Below are positions 21,554 through 59,257 of a stretch of DNA of 64,000 bases, in pieces. The position numbers and the translations under genes are program-made. The DNA comes from Candidatus Gastranaerophilales bacterium (GTDB lineage: Bacteria; Cyanobacteriota; Vampirovibrionia; Gastranaerophilales; Gastranaerophilaceae): contig CALUYZ010000002.1 in the NCBI GenBank assembly GCA_944325175.1, positions 1 through 64,000 on the forward strand. Direction: 5' to 3'. The notes below the pieces were generated by a model. That model was given only the letters and a program-made list of their open reading frames with translations, made no database searches and had not been told where the DNA came from. The stretch's first letter is position 1; each line of letters begins with the position of its first letter.

Positions 21554-23643
21554 TAACCTTCACCTATTGTATCAATAGCTTCAACTCTAATATCTGTTAT
21601 AAGTTCAGAATATGAAATAACAACGATTGTGGGGATGTGCCTTTCTAGCATTTGATATAAAGGCAATCTTATTCTTGGCGAACATAAAATAACAGGCTGA
21701 ACACCAACGGCTTGATGCGCCTTCATTAAGGTGTTAGCCGTTGTTTCAATTAATTCTTGCACCTGCATTGGGTTTAATAAAAACATTGTGCCAAGTTCCG
21801 TTCTTTGGCAAGAATCATCCAAAGTTTTTTCCCATTCGCTTGATAGTGTAAGTGCATATAAAACCTTATCTTTGTTACAGTTTTGAAGGCAAATTTGCCT
21901 GCCTAATGCCGCTCTTAGTCTTTCAGATAAAATATCGGGTTCTTTTGAAAACCTTGCATAGTCGCATAATCTTTCAAAAATAAAGATAATATCTTTAATT
22001 GAAACTTTTTCTCTAATTAAGTTAACAAAAATTTTCCTCAAGTCTGATGTTGAAATAATTGTTGGAACAAGGTCATTAACCAACGTCGGGTCTTGAGATT
22101 TAACAAGTTCCATAAGTTTCAAGACATCTGTTTTTGTCATTACTTCATCAACATATTTTCTAACGCAATCTTGAAGGTGAGTTACAATAACATCAACTGC
22201 ATCAACCGCAACAATTTTAGAGTTTCTGTCTATATATTGGGGGTCAATCCAATAAGCTTGCGATTGATAAGTTGGGTCAACTGATACAATAACGTTATCA
22301 GGCACTTTTTTGCCCAAAGCTTCCCATTGGTCTGCAATAACCATAAATTTTGAAGGGTATACAACGCCCGTTGCAACAGTGTTGCCCCTTATTGCAATTA
22401 AATATTCGTTATCTTTTATGGCAGATGAATCCATAATTCTTATGTTTGGAATAATGTAGCCTAATTCATCTGTCACTCTTTGTCTTAGGGCTGCAATTTT
22501 AGCCAATAATTGCCCGTCTTGGTCAGGGTCTGCAATAATTAACAAGCCTGAACCAACCTGTAAGGATAAAACGTCAACACCCAATCTTTCATACATTTTA
22601 TTCGGGTTAACCAGGTCTTGCATATTTTTTCTAACAGCATCCAATTGCCCTAATTGCTGCTGAACATCGGCATTTACAAGAACAGAAATGCCTGCAAAAA
22701 GCAAAATTATGGAAAACATAACAAAAGGCCACCAAGGAAGCCCTGTTACACCGCTTGTTATTGCAATAAACATCAAAAAGCCGCAAGATAAAAAGAGAGC
22801 CTGTGGTTTAGATAAAATTTGCAAGGTAACGTCTTTTGCAAGTGATGTGCTTGCACCGGTTGACCTTGTCATCACGATACCTGATGATATTGCCATTAAA
22901 AGTGAAGGAAGTTGAGAAGATAAACCATCACCGATTGTTAATACCGTATATTTTGAAACAGCGTCTGCCAAAGGCATTTGATTCATTACAACACCTATTA
23001 TTAAGCCGCCTATGATATTAATAACAGCAATAATAATACCTGCGATAGTATCACCTTTAACAAACTTCATAGCACCATCCATAGAACCAAACAAGGATGA
23101 TTCCCTTTGAAGGTCTTCCCTTCTTTTAACCGCTTCTTCAGGGGAAATTAAACCTTGGTTAAAATCGGCATCGATTGTCATTTGTTTACCCGGCATAGCA
23201 TCCAATGCAAACCTTGCTGAAACTTCTGCTATACGTTCAGCACCTTTTGTAATTACCATAAACTGAACGACGGTGATAATTAAGAAAATAACACCGCCAA
23301 CAACCATATTACCGCCGGTTACAAATGTTCCAAAAGCATGAACAACTTCACCTGCATCCCCTTTAGCCAAAATAAGCCTTGTTGATGCTATTGATAAAAC
23401 CAATCTAAACATTGTGCCGATAAGGATAATAGATGGAAAAGAAGCCAATTCCAAAGGTTTTTGCACAAACAAAGAAAACATTAAAAGAATAACACCCAAT
23501 GCAATATTCAATGAAATTGAAAAATTTATAACCCAGTTTGGCATTTCAATAAGCAAAATTAATATAAGGGCAATTACAAAAAATGCCATTAAAATTTCGC
23601 TTATAGGGTTATTTGCTATTGTTGTTTTTCCTTGTGCTGCCAT
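21550..23643 (-). CDS. flhA: Flagellar export protein FlhA
   Basis: A 697-residue core component of the flagellar type III export gate. The N-terminal half has about eight membrane segments, starting near IALILILLIEMPNWVI. The conserved cytoplasmic FHIPEP-type loop (AKGDAGEV, FALDAMPGKQMTIDADFN) lies around residues 90-170. The C-terminal half is the soluble ring domain that binds chaperones and substrates. Length and motifs are normal. It is the last gene of the fliE-fliF-fliG-like-fliH-flhA operon; flhB, fliI and the fliPQR genes are not in the window. Confidence 0.95.
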   Translation of the reverse strand: MAAQGKTTIANNPISEILMAFFVIALILILLIEMPNWVINFSISLNIALGVILLMFSLFVQKPLELASFPSIILIGTMFRLVLSIASTRLILAKGDAGEVVHAFGTFVTGGNMVVGGVIFLIITVVQFMVITKGAERIAEVSARFALDAMPGKQMTIDADFNQGLISPEEAVKRREDLQRESSLFGSMDGAMKFVKGDTIAGIIIAVINIIGGLIIGVVMNQMPLADAVSKYTVLTIGDGLSSQLPSLLMAISSGIVMTRSTGASTSLAKDVTLQILSKPQALFLSCGFLMFIAITSGVTGLPWWPFVMFSIILLFAGISVLVNADVQQQLGQLDAVRKNMQDLVNPNKMYERLGVDVLSLQVGSGLLIIADPDQDGQLLAKIAALRQRVTDELGYIIPNIRIMDSSAIKDNEYLIAIRGNTVATGVVYPSKFMVIADQWEALGKKVPDNVIVSVDPTYQSQAYWIDPQYIDRNSKIVAVDAVDVIVTHLQDCVRKYVDEVMTKTDVLKLMELVKSQDPTLVNDLVPTIISTSDLRKIFVNLIREKVSIKDIIFIFERLCDYARFSKEPDILSERLRAALGRQICLQNCNKDKVLYALTLSSEWEKTLDDSCQRTELGTMFLLNPMQVQELIETTANTLMKAHQAVGVQPVILCSPRIRLPLYQMLERHIPTIVVISYSELITDIRVEAIDTIGEGY

Positions 23644-47899: not shown

Positions 47900-48184
47900 T
47901 TTCTAACTTTTCTCCATTTTAAAAAGACTTTTTTAGTATATCATTTTTTTTGCCCCCTTTAAACCCCCCTTAATTCACCGTTTATTTAAAGTTTTAAAAC
48001 TTTAACCCACATTTGAACAAATTTTTGAACATTTTGTTGTCATATTTACAATTTTTAACCAACCAAAAAAATAAATTATTTATATTAGATTTTATTTAAA
48101 ATTTCACTTGTCAAAAAATATTTTATTGCTATAATAATTTTGTTGACATCAGCAAACAAAAATCGCTGAATAAAACAAATTATC

Positions 48185-48280
48185 AAATAATCCTCAGTAG
48201 CTCCTTGGTGAGGCTTGCCGAACCAAAAGAAATCAGAGCAAATGCTCTGCCGGTGAGCGAAACGGAAAAAGAAAAAAATT
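48185..48280. other. Rearranged tRNA-Asn-like fragment
   Basis: Begins with a 19-base direct repeat (to 48203) of the sequence that enters the intact tRNA-Asn (48287-48305). The rest contains inverted matches to tRNA-Asn arms: AATGCTCTGCC matches the reverse complement of the D-arm/anticodon side, and CGAACCAA that of the T arm. It cannot fold as a normal tRNA. It is probably a relic of rearrangement or insertion at the tRNA. Confidence 0.45.
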
Positions 48281-48292
48281 AAAATTAAATAA

Positions 48293-49824
<1,532 letters not shown>

Positions 49825-49828
<4 letters not shown>

Positions 49829-50004
49829 TTTTCAATTCCCTTTAAGATTGCGTCTATATCTGCTTTTTTGTAAAGCCTGTATGAATTAATAGGGTGTCTA
49901 AATGGTTTTAACTTTCCAGCCTTATCCCAGCGTCTTAAAGTTGTTTTATCAACCCCTAAAAGTTCCGCTGCCTCTTTTATCGTTATATAGTCTTTGATGT
50001 TCAT
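49825..50004 (-). CDS. MerR-type/excisionase-like DNA-binding protein
   Basis: About 59 residues: ITIKEAAELLGVDKTTLRRWDKAGKLKP is the helix-turn-helix with wing of MerR-type excisionases, and YRLYKKADIDAIL the usual ending. An upstream in-frame ATG at 50022 is possible. Coupled by overlap to the recombinase gene, so it may set recombination direction. Confidence 0.85.
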
Positions 50005-50050
50005 ATAAAAATTATATAACAATATGAAAGGTTATGCAAGGATATGTAAA

Positions 50051-50365
50051 TTATAAATTACAATCAAATATTTCATTAATAAAATTATTCTTATTCTTAT
50101 TTATATTTTGTATTATTTCTTCACCCCTTAAGGTCAAATAATTTTCTGGTATTGTTGTAAAAAAGTTCTGCCCTATACCTCTTTTGGCTACAATATGCGT
50201 GTAACCTAGTGCATTTAATTCATCTATAACCTCAATCATACCGCTTATATCTTTTCTTATGAGCTCCTTAACTCCTTGATTTACCTCTAGTAATGTTTTG
50301 TTATTCTGCTTTGAGTTATAAAGCAAATTTAACAATTCGTTTGTATATTCTTGACGTTTACCCAT
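50051..50365 (-). CDS. Hypothetical element protein
   Basis: A 104-residue protein of unknown family, largely helical with a central beta-type stretch (YTHIVAKRGIGQNFFTTIPENYLTLRG) that looks like a winged-helix wing. It lies four bases downstream of the XRE gene and may be its partner. No enzymatic motif is visible. Confidence 0.6.
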   Translation of the reverse strand: MGKRQEYTNELLNLLYNSKQNNKTLLEVNQGVKELIRKDISGMIEVIDELNALGYTHIVAKRGIGQNFFTTIPENYLTLRGEEIIQNINKNKNNFINEIFDCNL

Positions 50366-50369
50366 AATC

Positions 50370-50711
50370 CTATCCCTTAATTTTCTTATTATATTTCTTT
50401 ATCGACTCTATGAAATTTAAAAATAACTCTAACTCGGCATTATTAGAAGAATACACTTCTTTAATAATCTTATCTCTATTCGTATTTTTGTTTTCTTCAA
50501 CTTGAAACCCAAACTCTGATAGCGGAACATTTAAAACATCTATTAATTTAAAAAATGTTTCAAGACTAGGCATAAAAACACCTCTTTCCAGTTTTCCATA
50601 GTGTTTTTCTGCAATTCCTATCTTTTCCGATAGTTCTTCTTGGGTTAATTTCGCCTTTTTTCTATATTCTTTAAATTTTTTGCCTAAAAATTCCTTGTCG
50701 TAAAATATCAT
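50370..50711 (-). CDS. XRE-family helix-turn-helix regulator
   Basis: A 113-residue protein. Residues 10-65 form the lambda-repressor-like HTH (KLTQEELSEKIGIAEKHYGKLERG, then SLETFFKLIDVL). The C-terminal tail is helical. It is divergent from the HsdR_N-like gene with 150 bases between, a likely regulatory switch. Confidence 0.88.
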   Translation of the reverse strand: MIFYDKEFLGKKFKEYRKKAKLTQEELSEKIGIAEKHYGKLERGVFMPSLETFFKLIDVLNVPLSEFGFQVEENKNTNRDKIIKEVYSSNNAELELFLNFIESIKKYNKKIKG

Positions 50712-50793
50712 AGGGTTGTACCTCGCTATTTTTCTTAAAATAGAATATTTATGACTACTTTTTAACTCTCTTTCTATTCCTTAACCAAAATAA

Positions 50794-50813
50794 GGTATAT
50801 TTATATTCCTTTT
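50794..50813. promoter_or_regulatory. Imperfect palindrome in divergent intergenic region
   Basis: AAGGTATA-TTTA-TATTCCTT has one mismatch between the arms. It lies between the XRE gene and the nuclease-like gene and may be the repressor's operator. Confidence 0.35.
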
Positions 50814-50863
50814 TGTGTTAATATCCTGTTGAGGTAGTTAAAAAATAATGAGGTATTTGCTAT

Positions 50864-51944
50864 ATGGAATTTATTGAAAAGATTAACCAACTAAAAGAAC
50901 GCTGTTCAGCTATGAAAGACAGCTTGCAAACAGAAGAAGCAACGAAGAACGCATTAATTATGCCTTTTATTAATGCTCTTGGATATGATGTTTTTAACCC
51001 TATAGAAGTTGTACCTGAATATATTGCAGATGTCGGAGTTAAAAAAGGTGAAAAGGTTGACTACGCAATATTAAAAGATAATAAACCGATAATACTTATT
51101 GAGTGCAAGAAAGTTGATAATAAATCTTTAGATATAAAAAAAACACGCAACTCAACTTATAAGATATTTTAGCGTTACTGACGCAAAGTTTATAATTTTA
51201 TCAAATGGCATTGTATATAAATTCTTTTCTGATATTGAATCTGCTGGCAAATTAGATAATGAACCGTTTTTTACCTTTAACTTATTAGATTTCAAAGAAA
51301 ATCAGATAGAAACCCTCTCTGAATTTTGCAAAGAAAATTTTGATATAGAAAAAGCATTTTCAAACGCAGGTGATTTAAAGTATATCAAGCAATTTGAAGA
51401 AGTTATTGAAAATGAATACAGACAGCCCAGCGATGATTTTATAAGGTATTTAATAAATAAATCTGGAGTTTGTGAAGGTCACATTACCGATAGAATTATT
51501 GAAAAACATAAAAATACTACCATAGAAGCATTTAATCTCTTTATGTCAAAAGTAATGAAAACATCCCTCGATTTTAATTTAAGCTCCAAACAAGAAACTA
51601 AAGAAACAAAAAACGAAATTATAACGACCCTTGAAGAATTAGAAGGCTACGCAATAGTAAAAAGTCTTTTAAATGGTGTTGTTGATACAAAAAGAATAAC
51701 ATATAGAGATAATGCAAGCTATTTTAATGTTTTGTTAGATGATAATATAAGAAAAACTATATGTAGACTATATTTTAACCGCTCTCAAAAATATATAGCA
51801 TTTGTAAAGGATAAAAAAGAAGAAAAAATTGCAATAAATTCAACAAATGATATTTTCAACTTGAAAGATAAGCTAAATGAAAAAATAAAAGAACTTATAA
51901 ATAATCATTCAAAAATTGAAGAAAGTGAGGTGCAAAATGTTTAA
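50864..51944 (+). pseudogene. HsdR_N-like PD-(D/E)XK nuclease gene split by frameshift at A8
   Basis: The first frame gives 102 residues ending at 51172. A single-base shift at the A8 tract (51136-51143) restores a continuous frame to 51944, for about 359 residues in total. Residues 1-95 carry the HsdR N-terminal nuclease pattern (EEATKNALIMPFINALGYDVF, VDYAILKDNKPIILIECKK), and the joined frame continues with the expected TQLIRYFSVTDAKFIILSNG. The rest is helical, then a beta domain resembling type I enzyme accessory parts. It may be a real mutation, a phase-variable tract or a sequencing error. Confidence 0.85.
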
Positions 51945-52782
51945 AATTATATCTGGCGATTTTTCAAAAAATTCAATTTGCACTTTTGAGAGCATATTAG
52001 AAACAGGAAAAGGATTTGAAACAACAAAAACTTTATTAAAAAATGCGCAAGAAATTCGTCTGTTATCAGATGAAGAAATAAATCAATTAATACAAAATTC
52101 AGATTATGCCTTATATATAAAAGACTTAAAAAAAGCTATTAAAGATGATAATACAGTGTGTTTTTATTATAAATACAAAAATAAAAAAGAATTTACAGCA
52201 ATAACAGACCTAAAAACTTATCAATTAGTTGCAAATAACGCAAAAGAAGAAGTCCCAGAAGAAAAATTGACGACTGTAAGTTCATCTAAAAATGGATGTT
52301 TACTTTTAATAGTTATTGCAGTAATTTTATTTATACTGGTAAGCTGTGTTGGAAATCATCAAACAAATACTACTTCAAACGACACGCAAACAAGTAACAA
52401 GGCAATAACTTCACGAAAACCTGCTCAGAACACCATAAAAGTAGCAAATGCCAAACAGGTCAATTATTTAAAAGGCTTTTTAAAACCAGGTTTTCAGATT
52501 GTAGATGAAAAACGTGTATACTATATCAAATCAAATGATTATCAGAATGCTTATTTTGTCGGAACAATGGTAAGACATATAAATAGGCTTGAACCTTGTA
52601 TATGGTTTGCAAGCAAATTTGAAGATACATCTGGTACGATATTATCAGCAAGTGACGGTGCAGTTTATGCTTCTTATCCTTTAGACGCTCGTAAGACTGA
52701 TATTCAAGTTAAATCTTATGATGATGGGTATAATAAAATTCATAATGAAGTATTAAAGCATTTTAACGAATTAGCAAGGTAA
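51937..52782 (+). CDS. Hypothetical membrane protein
   Basis: About 281 residues from the ATG at 51937, which overlaps the end of the nuclease-like frame by eight bases and follows GAGGTG. The N-terminal 120 residues are probably cytosolic. One membrane segment follows (CLLLIVIAVILFILVSCVG, about residues 128-147), then a Thr/Ser-rich linker and a C-terminal exported domain. No family is recognised. Confidence 0.7.
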   Translation: MFKIISGDFSKNSICTFESILETGKGFETTKTLLKNAQEIRLLSDEEINQLIQNSDYALYIKDLKKAIKDDNTVCFYYKYKNKKEFTAITDLKTYQLVANNAKEEVPEEKLTTVSSSKNGCLLLIVIAVILFILVSCVGNHQTNTTSNDTQTSNKAITSRKPAQNTIKVANAKQVNYLKGFLKPGFQIVDEKRVYYIKSNDYQNAYFVGTMVRHINRLEPCIWFASKFEDTSGTILSASDGAVYASYPLDARKTDIQVKSYDDGYNKIHNEVLKHFNELAR

Positions 52783-52854
52783 GATTTCAGCTTATTTGTT
52801 TGGGAATAATATCAGCTATAATTTGCTGTGCTTCGGTTTTGGCTTCAAGTGTTA

Positions 52855-52890
52855 GTGAAAAGCTCATTGAAAAATCAATGAGCTTTTCAC
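52855..52890. terminator. Bidirectional terminator hairpin
   Basis: A perfect 16-bp stem GTGAAAAGCTCATTGA with a 4-base loop lies between the convergent membrane-protein gene and the terminase-like gene. Confidence 0.85.
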
Positions 52891-52916
52891 CTATTGTCTT
52901 TTGTATAAAGGTATTC

Positions 52917-53261
52917 TTATAACTCCTTTAATTTATCCATAACTTTTTCAATAACTGAATCATCAATTATTTCATTTACTGTTTGCTCCACTTTTTCTGT
53001 AGGATTTTCACCAATACTTGCCCTAATTGTTTCAAAGGCTCTAACATTACCTTTAAGGGCTTGCATAATTAAAGAAAGACAAATTTTTTCTCTCATACTT
53101 TTGCCATTTTTATCAATAGTATCAAGCAAGTAAAGCAGCTCATCTCTAAGCTGCTTATTTTTCCGTCTTATTTCCCCAGACTTTATACCGCCAATTCTTC
53201 CATTTTTTCGAGCTTCACTCGAGCTTTTAGGCAATAAGTTTTTTAGACTTTTTTTATTCAT
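52917..53261 (-). CDS. Phage small-terminase-like protein
   Basis: A 114-residue protein. SSSEARKNGRIGGIKSGEIRR followed by helices with ALKGNVRAFETIRASIGENP resembles the short terminase-small-subunit-like proteins in phages and islands of Firmicutes. Without a large terminase gene here, the role is uncertain. Last of the minus-strand module. Confidence 0.55.
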   Translation of the reverse strand: MNKKSLKNLLPKSSSEARKNGRIGGIKSGEIRRKNKQLRDELLYLLDTIDKNGKSMREKICLSLIMQALKGNVRAFETIRASIGENPTEKVEQTVNEIIDDSVIEKVMDKLKEL

Positions 53262-53501
53262 TTATTCAACCCTCTTTACTAATTTTATGTTCATTGGTTT
53301 TATGACTTTTGTTGCAAAATTATCAAAATTCCAAATATGATAAACATTTGTTGCGGCTATTAATAAAATTAGAATCGCACTTAGTATTTGTAAAAACTTA
53401 ATCTCGCTTTTTTGAAATCTGATTTCATCACTTAATATATCTATTGCCATACTCTTGTAATCTATAATTTTTTCTTGTTGTTTAACTGCTTTGTTTTTCA
53501 T
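53262..53501 (-). CDS. Hypothetical small membrane protein
   Basis: A 79-residue protein with one membrane segment (FLQILSAILILLIAATNVYHIW, about residues 38-60) and a Lys-rich N terminus. Its stop directly abuts the next gene. No family is recognised. Confidence 0.6.
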   Translation of the reverse strand: MKNKAVKQQEKIIDYKSMAIDILSDEIRFQKSEIKFLQILSAILILLIAATNVYHIWNFDNFATKVIKPMNIKLVKRVE

Positions 53502-53564
53502 AAAGTTTCCTCCTATATTCTATTTCTATGATATTTGTTACCTATTTCAAAAAAACGCTTAAAT

Positions 53565-53777
53565 TTACCGCCTTTTTTCAATCTTTGAGCGAGCTTTTCC
53601 TAGTTGCTCTCGTTTCTTTTTGCTTATGGGTGGTTTATTAGGATTTATATATCCATATTTTTTGCAACACTCCATACAATATTTATATTTAACTGGTGAT
53701 TTAGCATTTGTTAAATCTTCATCTAACCAACAGTTATTACATGATTTGTTTTTACAAAAATGCATTATATAATTCAT
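53565..53777 (-). CDS. Small Cys-rich, probably zinc-binding protein
   Basis: A 70-residue protein with Cys in HFCKNKSCNNCW and YCMECCKKYG, enough for a zinc site, and a basic C-terminal tail. It is probably a nucleic-acid-binding accessory protein of the element. No family is recognised. Confidence 0.6.
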   Translation of the reverse strand: MNYIMHFCKNKSCNNCWLDEDLTNAKSPVKYKYCMECCKKYGYINPNKPPISKKKREQLGKARSKIEKRR

Positions 53778-53791
53778 AGTTATAAATACTC

Positions 53792-53929
53792 CTAATAGCT
53801 TGTTGTGTGATTATTTTCATTTGTAGTTTCAATATCATTTAGATATTCATTTTCATTTTCAAGTAGCATAAGCATATGGTTCTCCACAAGCTCATTCATT
53901 TGGCTATGCATTTGTTTAAGTTGTTTCAT
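53792..53929 (-). CDS. Small 45-residue ORF overlapping the replication gene
   Basis: Reads MKQLKQMHSQMNELVEN and continues acidic to HTTSY. Its start overlaps the end of the DUF1376-like gene by 14 bases, typical of coupled phage-type genes. A weak AAAGGAAAG lies upstream. It is too short for firm support. Confidence 0.45.
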   Translation of the reverse strand: MKQLKQMHSQMNELVENHMLMLLENENEYLNDIETTNENNHTTSY

Positions 53930-54320
53930 CTTTTGATATCTTTCCTTTCGCGTTTTCTTGTCTTGTAGTTACATAATTAATTCGTTCAAAAATTCTTTTA
54001 TCTAGATATGGACTGTACAGATTTGAATCATTATCAATTTCAAGTTTTTTCATAACATCAGGACTTAATCCCTCTGGAAATCGTAAATTGATAACTTTTT
54101 CTGTAAGGTGTCCATACTGAAATTGATAACAAAAAACTTTTATAAATTGTCCTATTTCGGAATCCGTTAAATCAGCCGTCATAGACATAAAATCATTTGG
54201 ATAAAACATAAAGGCGGGGTCTTTTTCCTTATAAGATAGCTGTTTTTTGAACTCCATAGGGTCAATTTTATTCATAATATAATTGTTTATAAGTTTCTGC
54301 TTATCTTTGTTTTTAGCCAT
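53916..54320 (-). CDS. DUF1376-like replication-associated protein
   Basis: A 134-residue protein. MFYPNDFMSMTADLTDSEIG and the following IKVFCYQFQYGHL match the DUF1376 pattern found at the N terminus of phage replication initiators. It lies directly downstream of the primase-polymerase gene, overlapping it by eight bases, so it is probably part of the element's replication module. Confidence 0.7.
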   Translation of the reverse strand: MAKNKDKQKLINNYIMNKIDPMEFKKQLSYKEKDPAFMFYPNDFMSMTADLTDSEIGQFIKVFCYQFQYGHLTEKVINLRFPEGLSPDVMKKLEIDNDSNLYSPYLDKRIFERINYVTTRQENAKGKISKDETT

Positions 54321-55203
54321 TCTGATACCTCATTTTGCACTTTTGGGCCGTCCTTCTGAGGTAATCACTTCTAAACATCTTTTTTCTATGTTTAAGGTCT
54401 TTCTGACTGGCATATGGACTTTTGCAAAATGCTTCGATTGATAGATTTTCATTACCTTTAGTCCAAAATATCAATTTTGACATTAATCCTAAGTCATTGC
54501 GGCTTTCGTCAGTAGAAGGTCTTTCGCCATTCCAATACGCTTGAAATTTTTTATCTCTTTTTAATCCAATCTGCAATAATTCAGATGATGATATATTGAA
54601 ATTTTGCGTTTCTATGGGTGTATATTCTGTTTCATTAGGTGCAAAATGTTTATAATAAATTTGATTGAGTTCTTGCTGTCTTTTTTCAATATTCCAATTA
54701 TTATAAACATTCTCTGTAAGTACAAAATGTCGGGAATGGTCGTATATTTCAAAAGTTTTACACCAACTTAAATTAGAATTTTTGCACTTTTTTTCTGGTT
54801 TACTGCCAATTATTAAAATATGCAACCCTCTACCACTTAATGAATATTCAGTATATGACTTAAACTTATTAACTATCCCCAAGGCTTCTTTTGCGATAGA
54901 ACCATTTTTATTAACACAATAATCTACATCAATTCCAGTTATAGTAATGTCATTGTCTATTTTTCCAAGTGCTATTCCGATATATTTCGCATTTCCCAAA
55001 TATGCTTTTGCATTTAAAGCTGTGTTATAAGCAACATATTTACTTTCATCAACCATATCTATTAATCTGCCTGTCTTGCTGTCAATAGGTCGTTTTAGTT
55101 TATCTACAACCACAAAACGCTTTAAATCCTTTAAATCTTGTAGTAAAATGGAATTACGATTTTCTAGGCTCTCTGTTTGGGGAGCTATTTTAATTTCCTG
55201 CAT
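54313..55203 (-). CDS. Archaeo-eukaryotic-type primase-polymerase
   Basis: A 296-residue protein of the phage NrS-1 polymerase-like type. Three AEP motifs are visible: the acidic DhD (GIDVDYC), the sxH-like SGRGLHIL and the later hydrophobic-acidic EIYDHSRHF. RPIDSKTGRLIDMVDESK at the N terminus is typical of the family. The C-terminal part (about residues 210-290) looks like the helical bundle next to the primase. It likely primes or replicates the element's DNA. No helicase domain is fused. Confidence 0.82.
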   Translation of the reverse strand: MQEIKIAPQTESLENRNSILLQDLKDLKRFVVVDKLKRPIDSKTGRLIDMVDESKYVAYNTALNAKAYLGNAKYIGIALGKIDNDITITGIDVDYCVNKNGSIAKEALGIVNKFKSYTEYSLSGRGLHILIIGSKPEKKCKNSNLSWCKTFEIYDHSRHFVLTENVYNNWNIEKRQQELNQIYYKHFAPNETEYTPIETQNFNISSSELLQIGLKRDKKFQAYWNGERPSTDESRNDLGLMSKLIFWTKGNENLSIEAFCKSPYASQKDLKHRKKMFRSDYLRRTAQKCKMRYQNG

Positions 55204-55354
55204 TTTTTGCCTCTTTCTTTTTTTTATGCAATTTGATAATTAAATTTGCAAAATTAGCGAAATTTGAAGTAATCTCAATGGCTTCAATGGTGCTTAAATC
55301 AGCTCCAAACTTTACTTTAGTCATTGAAATTAAGTTTTCGCTAAAATTTTGCAT
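55190..55354 (-). CDS. Small 54-residue ORF upstream of the primase-polymerase
   Basis: Reads MQNFSENLISMTKVKFGADL and ends with a Lys-rich tail. It overlaps the start of the primase-polymerase gene by 14 bases and begins six bases after the preceding HTH gene. Tight packing supports it as translated. Function unknown. Confidence 0.55.
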   Translation of the reverse strand: MQNFSENLISMTKVKFGADLSTIEAIEITSNFANFANLIIKLHKKKKEAKNAGN

Positions 55355-55360
55355 CAACTA

Positions 55361-55543
55361 CTAACCTGCCATTTCAGTTTTTAAAATTTCAATTATCGAA
55401 AATATTTTTTTCTTGGTAGTATCTGGCAGCTCTTTTCGTAATTTTCTACTAAAATTGCCATCAGAAATTCCCAATTTCTCAGCAATTTGCCAAAATCTAA
55501 TATTTGCTTCCGTAGCTTTTTGTCTAATGTCTAAATTTTTCAA
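55361..55543 (-). CDS. Small HTH regulator of the element
   Basis: A 60-residue helix-turn-helix protein: FWQIAEKLGISDGNFSRKLRKELP followed by KKKIFSIIEIL, a pattern common in mobile elements of Firmicutes. First gene of the minus-strand replication module and divergent from the repressor, so it is probably the Cro-like side of the switch. Confidence 0.85.
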   Translation of the reverse strand: MKNLDIRQKATEANIRFWQIAEKLGISDGNFSRKLRKELPDTTKKKIFSIIEILKTEMAG

Positions 55544-55588
55544 AATTTCCTCCTTTAATTAACTATATTGACTGTTTTTAACTATTAA

Positions 55589-55607
55589 TGTATATTTTAA
55601 ATATACA
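55589..55607. promoter_or_regulatory. Perfect 19-bp palindromic operator
   Basis: TGTATATTT-T-AAATATACA lies between the divergent HTH and repressor genes, where an operator of a lysogenic switch is expected. Confidence 0.65.
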
Positions 55608-55739
55608 CATCTTGTTGTTGTATTTGTTATTATTACATAGTAAACCCGAAATGCTTATCCCGCAAGCGTTTGATATGTACAAAATAACAAAAAAGATTAA
55701 AGTGACAGAAGTGTAAAATTAAAAAATACAGGAACATAT

Positions 55740-56429
55740 ATGAGCAAAAAAGAAAAACCGCTTAGTAAAAAGCAATTAGAAAGAATTTCAAATGTTTTTG
55801 CAAAAGCAAGAAAATCATATAATAAAGATATAAGTTATAGAAAGTTTGCCGAATATATGGGGCTTTCACATAGTACAATTCAAGCTATTGAAAACGCTCG
55901 ACAAGAGCCATCTATATCTGTGATAAATACCTATATAGAAAAGTTTGGCGGTACATTTGCCTATTGGTTAGGCGAAGCTACTTGCAAAAATCCTGATAAT
56001 GAAGCAATACATAATTTGACTGGGTTATCGGAAGAAGCCATTAATAAATTAAGGGAATATAAAAATTATATTGATATAACCGAAGCGAATATGGGGGATT
56101 ATTATTTTGATGTAGCTCAACGCTTGCAAGTGCTGAATTATATCATAGAAAATATTGAACATAATGGCTTTTGTCCTGATGAAAGCTTAAATACAACGGA
56201 TAAAAATTTATTAGATAATATTTATACTTTTCTATTCTCCGATTTTGATACTAAAAACACTCCAAATGGTTATATGTATTGTAGAAAGATAAAAATAGGC
56301 GATAAACAAGTTTCTAAGGGTGAATTATTACAAAAAAATGAAGTTAGAATGATATATTTGCTAAACATTCAAAAGAACTTAAACAAAATGAGGGATGAAA
56401 TCCAACAAAAAGAATTTGAATCTAATTAA
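55740..56429 (+). CDS. CI-like XRE-family repressor
   Basis: A 229-residue protein. Residues 25-80 form an HTH (SYRKFAEYMGLSHSTIQAIENARQEPS). The remaining part is helical and does not show the Ser-Lys protease site of LexA/CI-type repressors. It is divergent from the replication module and faces the palindromic operator, so it probably keeps the element silent. Confidence 0.8.
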   Translation: MSKKEKPLSKKQLERISNVFAKARKSYNKDISYRKFAEYMGLSHSTIQAIENARQEPSISVINTYIEKFGGTFAYWLGEATCKNPDNEAIHNLTGLSEEAINKLREYKNYIDITEANMGDYYFDVAQRLQVLNYIIENIEHNGFCPDESLNTTDKNLLDNIYTFLFSDFDTKNTPNGYMYCRKIKIGDKQVSKGELLQKNEVRMIYLLNIQKNLNKMRDEIQQKEFESN

Positions 56430-56431
56430 GA

Positions 56432-56899
56432 TTATTTAGAATTTTTTTTGAAAAAATCTTCAAATATTGTTTTTATGTCATCACTTTTTTGAAAAACTTC
56501 CATAATATCAATTTTTGCAAAGTCTTTTGCTTCTCTCAGTTGACTATTACATTTAGCACTTGCTTTTATAAAAGCGTCTATTTTATCTCGAATTTCTTGA
56601 TTAAACAAATGTTGTGTCTTTAGCAAATTGTGATTTAATTCCATATATAATAAACAAATGTCAGATATATTTCTATCTTTTGTTTCTTCATCCCCCTCTT
56701 TTAAATCCATAAAAGTAAATAAGATTTTCCAAATAATATCATTTATTTCCGAATAAAACTGTATTCTTGCTGAAAATAATGTTAATTTATTTTGTTTTTC
56801 GATAGCTTTCCATTGAAGAAAAGCAAATACTGTTAATGCAAGAGTTAAAATTATATTTGAAGTAATTTCTATAACTTTTATCATAAATAAAATTCCCAC
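56432..56899 (-). CDS. Hypothetical membrane-anchored protein
   Basis: A 155-residue protein with one N-terminal membrane helix (IILTLALTVFAFLQW) and a helical cytosolic tail. Converges on the repressor gene with two bases between. No family is recognised; a superinfection or defence accessory role is conceivable but unsupported. Confidence 0.65.
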   Translation of the reverse strand: MGILFMIKVIEITSNIILTLALTVFAFLQWKAIEKQNKLTLFSARIQFYSEINDIIWKILFTFMDLKEGDEETKDRNISDICLLYMELNHNLLKTQHLFNQEIRDKIDAFIKASAKCNSQLREAKDFAKIDIMEVFQKSDDIKTIFEDFFKKNSK

Positions 56900-56973
56900 T
56901 TATATTGTACGACAATTATAATTAAAAAATTTATTGTCATATAATAGTTTATAAATAATATAAGGGAATTAGA

Positions 56974-58278
56974 ATGGATAAAAAAGAAAAAGAAAATTGG
57001 TTACGCCATAAAAATTTTATGAAAAAAAAATCAGATATAGCAATAGAATTAAGAAGTAAAGAAAGTCAATTCTACGGACTAAAACGTGAATTCGTTTACG
57101 CTCAAGAAGAAATATTAGATAAATATAAAAAAGCAAAAGATTCTAAACATCCAAGAGATATTGGAAATATAAGAGAAAATATCTTAAGAGATTTTCTTGA
57201 CTCATCAGGTATCTTGCCTCAAAAATACCAAATTTCAAAAAATAGTGCTAGAGTTGTATCAACGACTGGGCATATAAGTAACGAAATTGACATATTAATT
57301 TACGATTATTTAAACAATATATCTTTAATGAATAGAGGAAGCGTTTATACTGCCTATCCTGTAGAAAGCGTCTACGGAATTATTCAGGTAAAATCTGTCT
57401 TAACTAAAAAAGAAATTAAAAATGCACTCGATAATATTGCCTCGTATAAGAAATTAAATAAAGATTTTGTTAGTGAAAATTCTTCTGGTTTTGTTATTTA
57501 TGATGGTTCAAAATCAAAACGCGGTTTTGGTATATTGTTTGCTTATGATAGTGATTTGGAATGGATTGATATTGTCAATGAGATTAAAAATTATGCAGAT
57601 AATAACCCAAATAAAAAATGTTGGTGTAATGCAGTAGTTATTCTGACACAAGGTGTCATTTTTCATGGAGAGAATAATTATGGTTATTTTCTCAATAATA
57701 ATATTGAAAAAATTAAAGAATTAAAAATGTTTGGTTTGCCAGATGCCGAAGCAATTTGTTTATATCAATTTTATGATATTCTAATGAAGTTACTAAAAAA
57801 TACGGAAACATCAGAAGTTCCCTATTGCAATTACTTTGATTTGCCATATACGGCTGGAGAATATTCTTACAAGTATTCACATGGCATTTTTTCAGAAATT
57901 GGTAATTGCAATAAACATGGTGCATATTTACGAAAGTTAGATGGTGAAAAGCTAGCAAAAGTTATTGATTGGTGCAAAAAATCAGAGCCAATTAATTGGC
58001 TAAGAGCAATTGATATTGCATACGAAAACAATGAAGATGAAAATAAATACAATAAACAACCTCATGAAGTAAGAATATACAACCCCAATAACTATAATTT
58101 AAAAGACATTTTATTAATGGATAATGAATTTATGGGTAAAAAAACAAAAAGTCTTGCCTATGAAGAAATTGTGGTTGATGATATGTATATTTGGTTGCCA
58201 TATTACTATGAAATTATAGAAAATCTTGTACAAGATTGTCCTAAATGTATGAAAAAGTCTAAAAATAAAAAGAATTGA
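56974..58278 (+). CDS. DUF6602-like protein with nuclease-type core
   Basis: A 434-residue protein. Residues 30-180 resemble DUF6602: FYGLKREFVYAQEEILDKY, GNIRENILRDFLDSSG, then NEIDILIYD and VESVYGIIQVKS. The Asp and the QVK stretch sit where a restriction-endonuclease-like fold has its D and ExK, but Gln replaces the Glu. The C-terminal half is unrecognised. Position at the end of the element suggests cargo, perhaps defence, which is inference. Confidence 0.65.
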   Translation: MDKKEKENWLRHKNFMKKKSDIAIELRSKESQFYGLKREFVYAQEEILDKYKKAKDSKHPRDIGNIRENILRDFLDSSGILPQKYQISKNSARVVSTTGHISNEIDILIYDYLNNISLMNRGSVYTAYPVESVYGIIQVKSVLTKKEIKNALDNIASYKKLNKDFVSENSSGFVIYDGSKSKRGFGILFAYDSDLEWIDIVNEIKNYADNNPNKKCWCNAVVILTQGVIFHGENNYGYFLNNNIEKIKELKMFGLPDAEAICLYQFYDILMKLLKNTETSEVPYCNYFDLPYTAGEYSYKYSHGIFSEIGNCNKHGAYLRKLDGEKLAKVIDWCKKSEPINWLRAIDIAYENNEDENKYNKQPHEVRIYNPNNYNLKDILLMDNEFMGKKTKSLAYEEIVVDDMYIWLPYYYEIIENLVQDCPKCMKKSKNKKN

Positions 58279-59257
58279 TATAATTTTTATGCAATCTTTT
58301 CTAATAAATAAGTTCTGAAATCGTACACTAAAGTGAGTTTTTTATTGCAAAAAACCAACTAATAAATAACCCGAGCAGTTTAATCAAAACGTTTCTTAAT
58401 GCTTTGATATAAATCAATAAGCATTTTTGTAATAAAAATTTTATCTTTATTTTTACAACGTTTTTATAAACACATTAATTTTGATAAAATGTCTTTTAAA
58501 TCGTACTTTTTTCAACAAGAACAAAGTTTCTCTTCTCGTTGCGTCAGTGTTGAAATGTTTTAAATTTCACAAGAGAGATAATTGTTAAATTTATATTGTT
58601 TTTAATATGGCTAAAATATTCTTGTACGGTAAATTTATATTTGCTTATTTTTGCTATGTGCGCTTTTAGATTAATTTAAAACGGTTTTAATGTTTATATT
58701 TGTCAAAAACAAGCAATATTTATGAAATTTTAAGTTATTTATGATGTCAAAATGAATCGGTTAAATTAATTTATAATTTATTCAAGACATCTTTTAAATA
58801 AGCTTTATGGCGGTTTTTGGCAAAAGTGGTTTTTTGTAAACTTTGCTGGCTAATTTGAATAATTTCTGACAGATAGCATGAGTTTTTGCCTGAGGTGAAT
58901 TTTACCTGAATACTGTCAAAGTTAAGCTGTTTTAGTTTTTGTTCGGGGCAGAAATGATAATTTAGAAAATCTTTTGTATTTGTTTTATTGAATCTTAATA
59001 CAATGAACATTTTTGTCATTTTTGCTCAAATTACAATAACTGTTTGAAGTAAAATGCAAGTTCGATTATTTCTTGCGTTTTATTAATCTTTGGGCATCTT
59101 TGTAGCAATTTCTTTGCGTCAAAATGTGTAATTTAAGGACAAATCAAGTTGCAGCGCTTATTACAAGGCATTATTTATAATGCAAAAACCATAAAAATTA
59201 AAAAATTGCGCAAATAATTTTTTTCAAGAGTTTTTAGAAAATACGATTGGAGGCAAT
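58279..59257. other. Gene-poor AT-rich gap after the element
   Basis: About 980 bases with no well-supported gene. One weak minus-strand ORF (58771-59019) lies inside. No repeat of the tRNA-Asn sequence, no clear terminator and no RNA gene was recognised. The element's right attachment site may lie here. Confidence 0.6.
58771..59019 (-). CDS. Possible small hypothetical gene
   Basis: An 82-residue reading frame (MTKMFIVLRFNKTNTKDFLNY...) with plausible composition. It includes a VKFTSG stretch reminiscent of the SF motif of other hypotheticals. No strong ribosome site or family is seen. Confidence 0.35.
   Translation of the reverse strand: MTKMFIVLRFNKTNTKDFLNYHFCPEQKLKQLNFDSIQVKFTSGKNSCYLSEIIQISQQSLQKTTFAKNRHKAYLKDVLNKL

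Follow-up and report, generated by a model that had tools for sequence, protein, structure and literature searches.

Positions 1 to 64,000 of contig CALUYZ010000002.1 from a Candidatus Gastranaerophilales bacterium (the full 64-kb stretch is hereafter called the window) contain, at 52917–56429, a string of small minus-strand genes built around a primase-polymerase (prim-pol) of the archaeo-eukaryotic primase (AEP) type and facing a repressor gene. An earlier description made without database searches (the sequence-only reading) had taken this interval to be an island resembling a phage satellite. The interval captures the core of the island but not its ends: the mobile element is larger, extending from approximately 48374 to 58346 (9.97 kb), is inserted at a tRNA-Asn gene, and includes an integrase, an excisionase-like gene, cargo genes and two attachment (att) sites that the earlier coordinates had missed.

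The integration target is a tRNA-Asn (gtt) gene at 48293–48364 on the plus strand, identified by ARAGORN and Rfam, the 3′ end of which forms part of attL. The same tRNA-Asn is present without the element in three congeneric species (G003, G006 and G008), where GAGTTTTTTATTGCAAAAAAC comes next, ahead of restriction-modification or other genes. In the window, this empty-site sequence is broken after GAGTTTTTTATT at 48373 and taken up again at 58335, and the element therefore spans roughly 48374–58346. The 12-bp core GAGTTTTTTATT occurs twice in the window on the plus strand, as attL at 48362–48373 and as an identical attR at 58335–58346, and nowhere else; the empty-site sequence continues through 58335–58355, a 21-mer common to the sequence downstream of tRNA-Asn in all three relatives. 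A plain direct-repeat search for att sites was unsuccessful, and the core was located by way of the empty sites in relatives. A partial tRNA-Asn-like copy is also present 102 bp upstream of the intact gene (48182–48208 versus 48284–48310, 89% over 27 nt).

Next to attL, a gene at 48326–49828 (minus strand) encodes a large serine recombinase of 500 aa (Pfam Resolvase, Recombinase and Zn_ribbon_recom; PHROG integrase, E = 6e-81), and its 3′ end overlaps the tRNA-Asn. A 79% identical homologue at locus L111 likewise overlaps a tRNA-Asn. The adjacent gene (49825–50022, minus) encodes a 65-aa MerR/AlpA/excisionase-like helix-turn-helix (HTH) protein with matches to HTH_17, MerR and PHROG excisionase and transcriptional regulator families (E = 5e-12), which we consider a candidate directionality factor or activator.

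The core string occupies the minus strand at 52917–53261, 53262–53501, 53565–53777, 53916–54320, 54313–55203, 55190–55357 and 55361–55543. These coordinates agree with the sequence-only reading of a minus-strand string of overlapping small genes facing a repressor, with true overlaps between open reading frames (ORFs) at 54313–54320 and 55190–55203. The first gene of the string (55361–55543) encodes a Cro/Xis-like HTH protein (PHROG 17740, E = 3e-14; 42% identical in locus L122), and divergent from it, on the plus strand at 55740–56429, lies a gene for an HTH_3 protein (Pfam, E = 6e-9) in the position of an Stl/Rpr-like repressor. A Pfam search found no peptidase family (S24) in the latter, the layout of the pair is the same in L101, L102 and L122, and the repressor role is a prediction from sequence. 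The perfect 19-bp palindrome reported earlier, TGTATATTTTAAATATACA, is present between the two genes (55589–55607; 9-bp arms around a central T) and overlaps a promoter-like site for the repressor, but as a candidate operator it deserves little weight: it is only mildly unusual, with one as long arising in 1% of shuffled versions of the intergenic region, and the whole window holds 5 such palindromes versus 0–5 in shuffles. We rejected it as a conserved operator because the switch regions of relatives do not keep TGTATATTTTAAATATACA.

The prim-pol (54313–55203, minus, 296 aa) carries an NrS-1-type helix-bundle domain. The AEP assignment of the sequence-only reading is supported by matches to PHROG DNA primase (E = 3e-35) and, at profile level, to solved NrS-1-type primase chains (E = 4e-25), with a weak Pfam match to NrS1-1_pol-like_HBD. 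The profile also matches the solved 797-aa primase 7ola (E = 6e-20), which we take to be the primase-helicase of SaPI5, and residues D92, D94, H128, E152 and D155, among those invariant in eight relatives, fit what we take to be the AEP active-site pattern. The island protein shares the AEP and helix-bundle domains with the NrS-1 phage primase-polymerase but stops after the latter domain and so lacks a helicase part. Its shortness does not seem due to decay, since the prim-pols of G165 (296 aa), G199 (325 aa), L122 (309 aa) and L126 (316 aa) stop at the same point; in the elements of G018 and G030, a D5-type helicase-like protein of 417 aa is encoded by a gene of its own (family read from sequence). 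Scanning viral contigs with a single prim-pol sequence returned no matches.

Directly after the prim-pol lies a gene (53916–54320, minus) for a remote DUF1376/YdaU-like protein, 60% identical in G165, where it also follows the prim-pol. The DUF1376 likeness suggested earlier holds only as a distant one: Pfam gives no match for the window protein itself and, for its homologue at L109, a weak one to PF07120 (E = 0.0034, below cut-off). The window, G165 and L126 have a DUF1376-like gene in this place, whereas G199 has one from a DnaD-like helicase-loader family and L122 one for a similar protein. A replication-initiation partner is therefore likely at this place, and we regard the 53916 protein as a candidate replication initiator or loader.

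The string is closed at 52917–53261 (minus) by a gene for which terminase small subunit (TerS) is our best call, based on the position of its homologues in phages and on one viral structural match; the sequence-only reading had likewise seen a small-terminase-like gene here. The protein belongs to PHROG 2412 (E = 6e-12), a family annotated as unknown, and in prophages and most of the viral contigs analysed its homologues lie directly before the gene for the large terminase subunit (TerL). Three prophages from the bacterial family of the host have the TerS homologue overlapping the TerL gene; TerL in the L103, L104 and L106 prophages is confirmed by PHROG in 3/3 cases and scores above the NCBIfam cut-off in 2/3. 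A scan of IMG/VR returned 80 loci with a TerS homologue, followed in 79 viral contigs by a large ORF that is linked by sequence to a confirmed TerL in 74. Among these 74 ORFs, 58 begin no more than 50 bp from the TerS homologue and 54 overlap its gene, and PHROG terminase large subunit family 2 alone accounts for at least 47 of the 69 distinct adjacent ORFs. Streptococcus phage Javan576 likewise carries the homologue in overlap with its annotated large terminase. The predicted TerS structure has a mean predicted local distance difference test score of 87, and its best match among viral models (BFVD) is to a protein bearing the name terminase small subunit (E = 7e-4, TM 0.53).

As had been claimed, the island is free of capsid, tail and conjugation genes: Pfam and PHROG searches with all island proteins matched no capsid, tail, TerL, relaxase or conjugation family.

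Among named genomes, those with the closest loci are metagenome-assembled genomes of Candidatus Gastranaerophilales. We surveyed 383 genomes of the bacterial family for the prim-pol and found matches in 12, 5 of which are of the helicase-less type with TerS. Comparing gene order in related genomes, a check put forward by the sequence-only reading, showed that the core recurs at other sites and with other integrases, in at least four other Gastranaerophilales elements (G165, G199, L122 of G330 and L126 of G322). The 7.8-kb G199 element is flanked on both sides by a perfect 46-bp tRNA-Met repeat and encodes an XRE protein, a small protein, an HsdR_N endonuclease, two TerS-like proteins, a membrane protein, a DnaD-like protein, a prim-pol, an excisionase-like HTH protein, a repressor and a tyrosine integrase. 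The genes in G165 are for a tyrosine integrase, repressor, HTH protein, prim-pol, DUF1376-like protein, membrane protein and two TerS-like proteins; those in L126 are for a tyrosine integrase, AlpA-like HTH protein, prim-pol, DUF1376-like protein and a TerS-like pair. L122 has a serine integrase near the repressor and then follows the order of the window, including counterparts of the 55361 and 55190 genes and a TerS 68% identical to that of the window. The XRE/HsdR_N cargo DNA is 97.1% identical between the window and G199, versus 79.8% for chromosomal clpC, which points to recent transfer across genera.

Other compact elements were encountered in these genomes. Those at L040, L041, L042 and L123, with a prim-pol (plus a helicase-like gene) followed by a shared pair of PLD-nuclease-like and PAPS-reductase-like genes, are probably another satellite type. 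A second satellite-like type at tRNA-Arg (L105:8730–14877 and L107:3777–9371) has serine integrase, TerS-like, zinc-finger primase-like and DUF3987-like genes.

The remaining genes of the core string are small. Beside TerS lies a membrane protein gene (53262–53501, minus) with a weak match in L243 (E = 5e-4) and similar small membrane ORFs in the same place in L101, L102 and L122; a cysteine-rich zinc-finger-like protein (53565–53777, minus) has 40–48% identical homologues in L103, L114, L115 and L126; and the short ORF before the prim-pol (55190–55357, minus) resembles a 59-aa ORF in the same place in L122. A terminator-like hairpin with perfect 16-bp arms and a 4-nt loop (52855–52890) separates the core string from convergent cargo. 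The cargo on this side comprises a small protein (50051–50365, minus; 91% identical in the G199 element, 46% in G247) and an XRE regulator (50370–50711, minus; HTH_3, E = 1e-16; 99% identical in G199), both part of the XRE/HsdR_N module, a stand-alone HsdR_N-type endonuclease gene (50864–51944, plus) that is frameshifted, with both pieces matching PHROG 4225 endonuclease, and a membrane-anchored protein (51916–52782, plus; 87% identical over residues 142–288 in the G165 element). The endonuclease is intact in G199 (351 aa) and G247 (350 aa). In G247, an AAA ATPase and HNH pair beside the same module (L113:2859–5341) matches the candidate defence system PDC-M62. Beyond the repressor lie a membrane protein without a family match (56432–56899, minus) and a DUF6602/NucC-like PD-DExK nuclease (56974–58278, plus; Pfam DUF6602, E = 3e-26; PADLOC PD_DExK, E = 1e-27, and NucC, E = 6e-19), the latter being, from its sequence matches, a candidate anti-phage cargo protein.

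Because the element has exact att boundaries with an empty site, a TerS-like closing gene, a recurring core, and neither structural nor transfer genes, we propose, in line with the sequence-only reading, that it is very probably a complete satellite of the type of phage-inducible chromosomal islands (PICIs), spreading via helper capsids. PICIs of the Staphylococcus aureus pathogenicity island (SaPI) type (PMC6092414) share with it a specific att site, here a direct repeat with an empty site in relatives; a divergent repressor/regulator pair; a module of excisionase-like HTH (55361), primase (54313) and putative initiator (53916) genes divergent from the repressor gene rpr, in which the excision and initiator roles are predicted; a terS homologue ending the string, present in some PICIs and recognized here by genomic position and the viral structural match; and the absence of structural and lytic genes. 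They are typically larger (approximately 15 kb, versus 9.97 kb here and 7.8 kb in G199), and the island further departs from them in the lack of a helicase part in its prim-pol and in its Gastranaerophilales host. Prophages are described as never using PICI att sites; at the island's site, the analysis covered three relatives. A large serine recombinase also excises the satellite PLE (PICI-like element) of Vibrio cholerae (PMC6002521); in PLE, however, the directionality factor is phage-encoded, whereas the island combines a TerS-like gene with an AEP prim-pol core in a PICI-like layout. The phage-inducible chromosomal minimalist islands (PICMIs) of Vibrionaceae (PMC10803314) have a similarly small set of integrase, AlpA-like regulator, primase and defence cargo, but no terS has been identified in them, and they insert next to fis.

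Several observations weigh against this proposal. The canonical PICI integrase lies beside the repressor, as do the tyrosine integrases of G165 and G199, whereas the serine integrase of the window is at the far end; the HsdR_N cargo gene is broken; and an iteron search for a replication origin, which in PICIs comes after the replication genes, gave nothing convincing. TerS has no significant match in the PDB by sequence or fold searches, and its homologue lies near another small-terminase type in L114 and in 2 of 69 viral loci, so that in some phages it could be another packaging factor. Boundaries, gene content, the identification of TerS by position and core recurrence are read directly from the sequence; induction, excision, replication, packaging and the part played by a helper we infer from gene content. 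The host genome yielded no cognate helper. The one resident TerL-bearing prophage detected, on contig C4, has an unrelated Terminase_2-type TerS and was set aside as cognate helper, its TerS being of another family. This podovirus-like prophage (G000:C4:17851–47273, L240–L241) also encodes a serine integrase, a lysozyme-like protein, a 2728-aa protein, a portal-like protein, TerL and, at 21745–22842, a reverse-transcriptase-like ORF. A phrog_2-type TerL, mostly a single open frame near 390 aa, is present in 9/9 genomes of the genus (e.g., L233–L238) and could be part of a conserved prophage or transfer agent.

One alternative, a decayed prophage stripped of its structural genes but retaining early genes and TerS, would suit the phage relatives of the prim-pol, HTH switch and TerS, as well as the broken cargo gene. 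We nevertheless consider it quite improbable: the core string, prim-pol and integrase retain intact reading frames, four other elements at other sites with different integrases show this reduced composition too, and both att sites are present with neither structural genes nor TerL between them. Phage structural genes just outside the element, which according to the sequence-only reading would have indicated a decayed prophage, are lacking at the homologous locus in three relatives, which is bordered there by restriction-modification and other non-structural genes.

A domesticated defence island that retains an integrase but no longer moves, with the TerS-like protein and prim-pol acting as anti-phage decoys, would explain the NucC-like nuclease and HsdR_N cargo and has a parallel in the PDC-M62-like pair beside the same module in L113. 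It is very unlikely, however, given that cargo 97% identical across genera reflects recent movement, that the integrase and att sites are intact, and that the core is conserved while the cargo varies. Integrative mobilizable elements often carry a serine integrase and an excisionase-like protein, and the lack of structural genes would also agree with an element moved by a conjugative helper; yet no island protein belongs to a relaxase or conjugation family and a TerS-like protein is of no use in conjugation, which makes this origin scarcely credible.

For a PICI-like satellite, the gene content suggests the following cycle. In the resting state, the repressor (55740–56429) would silence the divergent core string, and helper phage infection or induction would lift the repression. 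In PICIs, whose induction, interference and packaging depend on a helper, a helper protein relieves the repressor (PMC6092414), and the absence of a self-cleaving peptidase match in the island repressor fits this mode. The serine integrase, aided by a directionality factor that could be either the 49825 protein or one from the helper, would then recombine attL with attR to give an excised circle, which the prim-pol and the DUF1376-like protein, probably with a host or helper helicase, would copy. The island TerS may redirect the helper TerL to island DNA, leading to packaging into helper capsids, and the cargo (NucC-like nuclease and HsdR_N module) would shield host or island from other phages.

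We found no description of satellites in Gastranaerophilales in the literature searched, and the island extends PICI-like satellites to this uncultured gut group. It also provides a likely function, TerS, for the phage protein family PHROG 2412. With roughly even confidence, we suggest that gut Gastranaerophilales harbor a satellite family specific to their lineage, whose single replication-packaging core passes from one integrase class (serine or tyrosine) and tRNA site to another and is replicated by a helicase-less prim-pol with a partner that may be either DUF1376-like or DnaD-like. The core is joined to different integrase classes in different hosts, which makes the modular origin of satellites testable.

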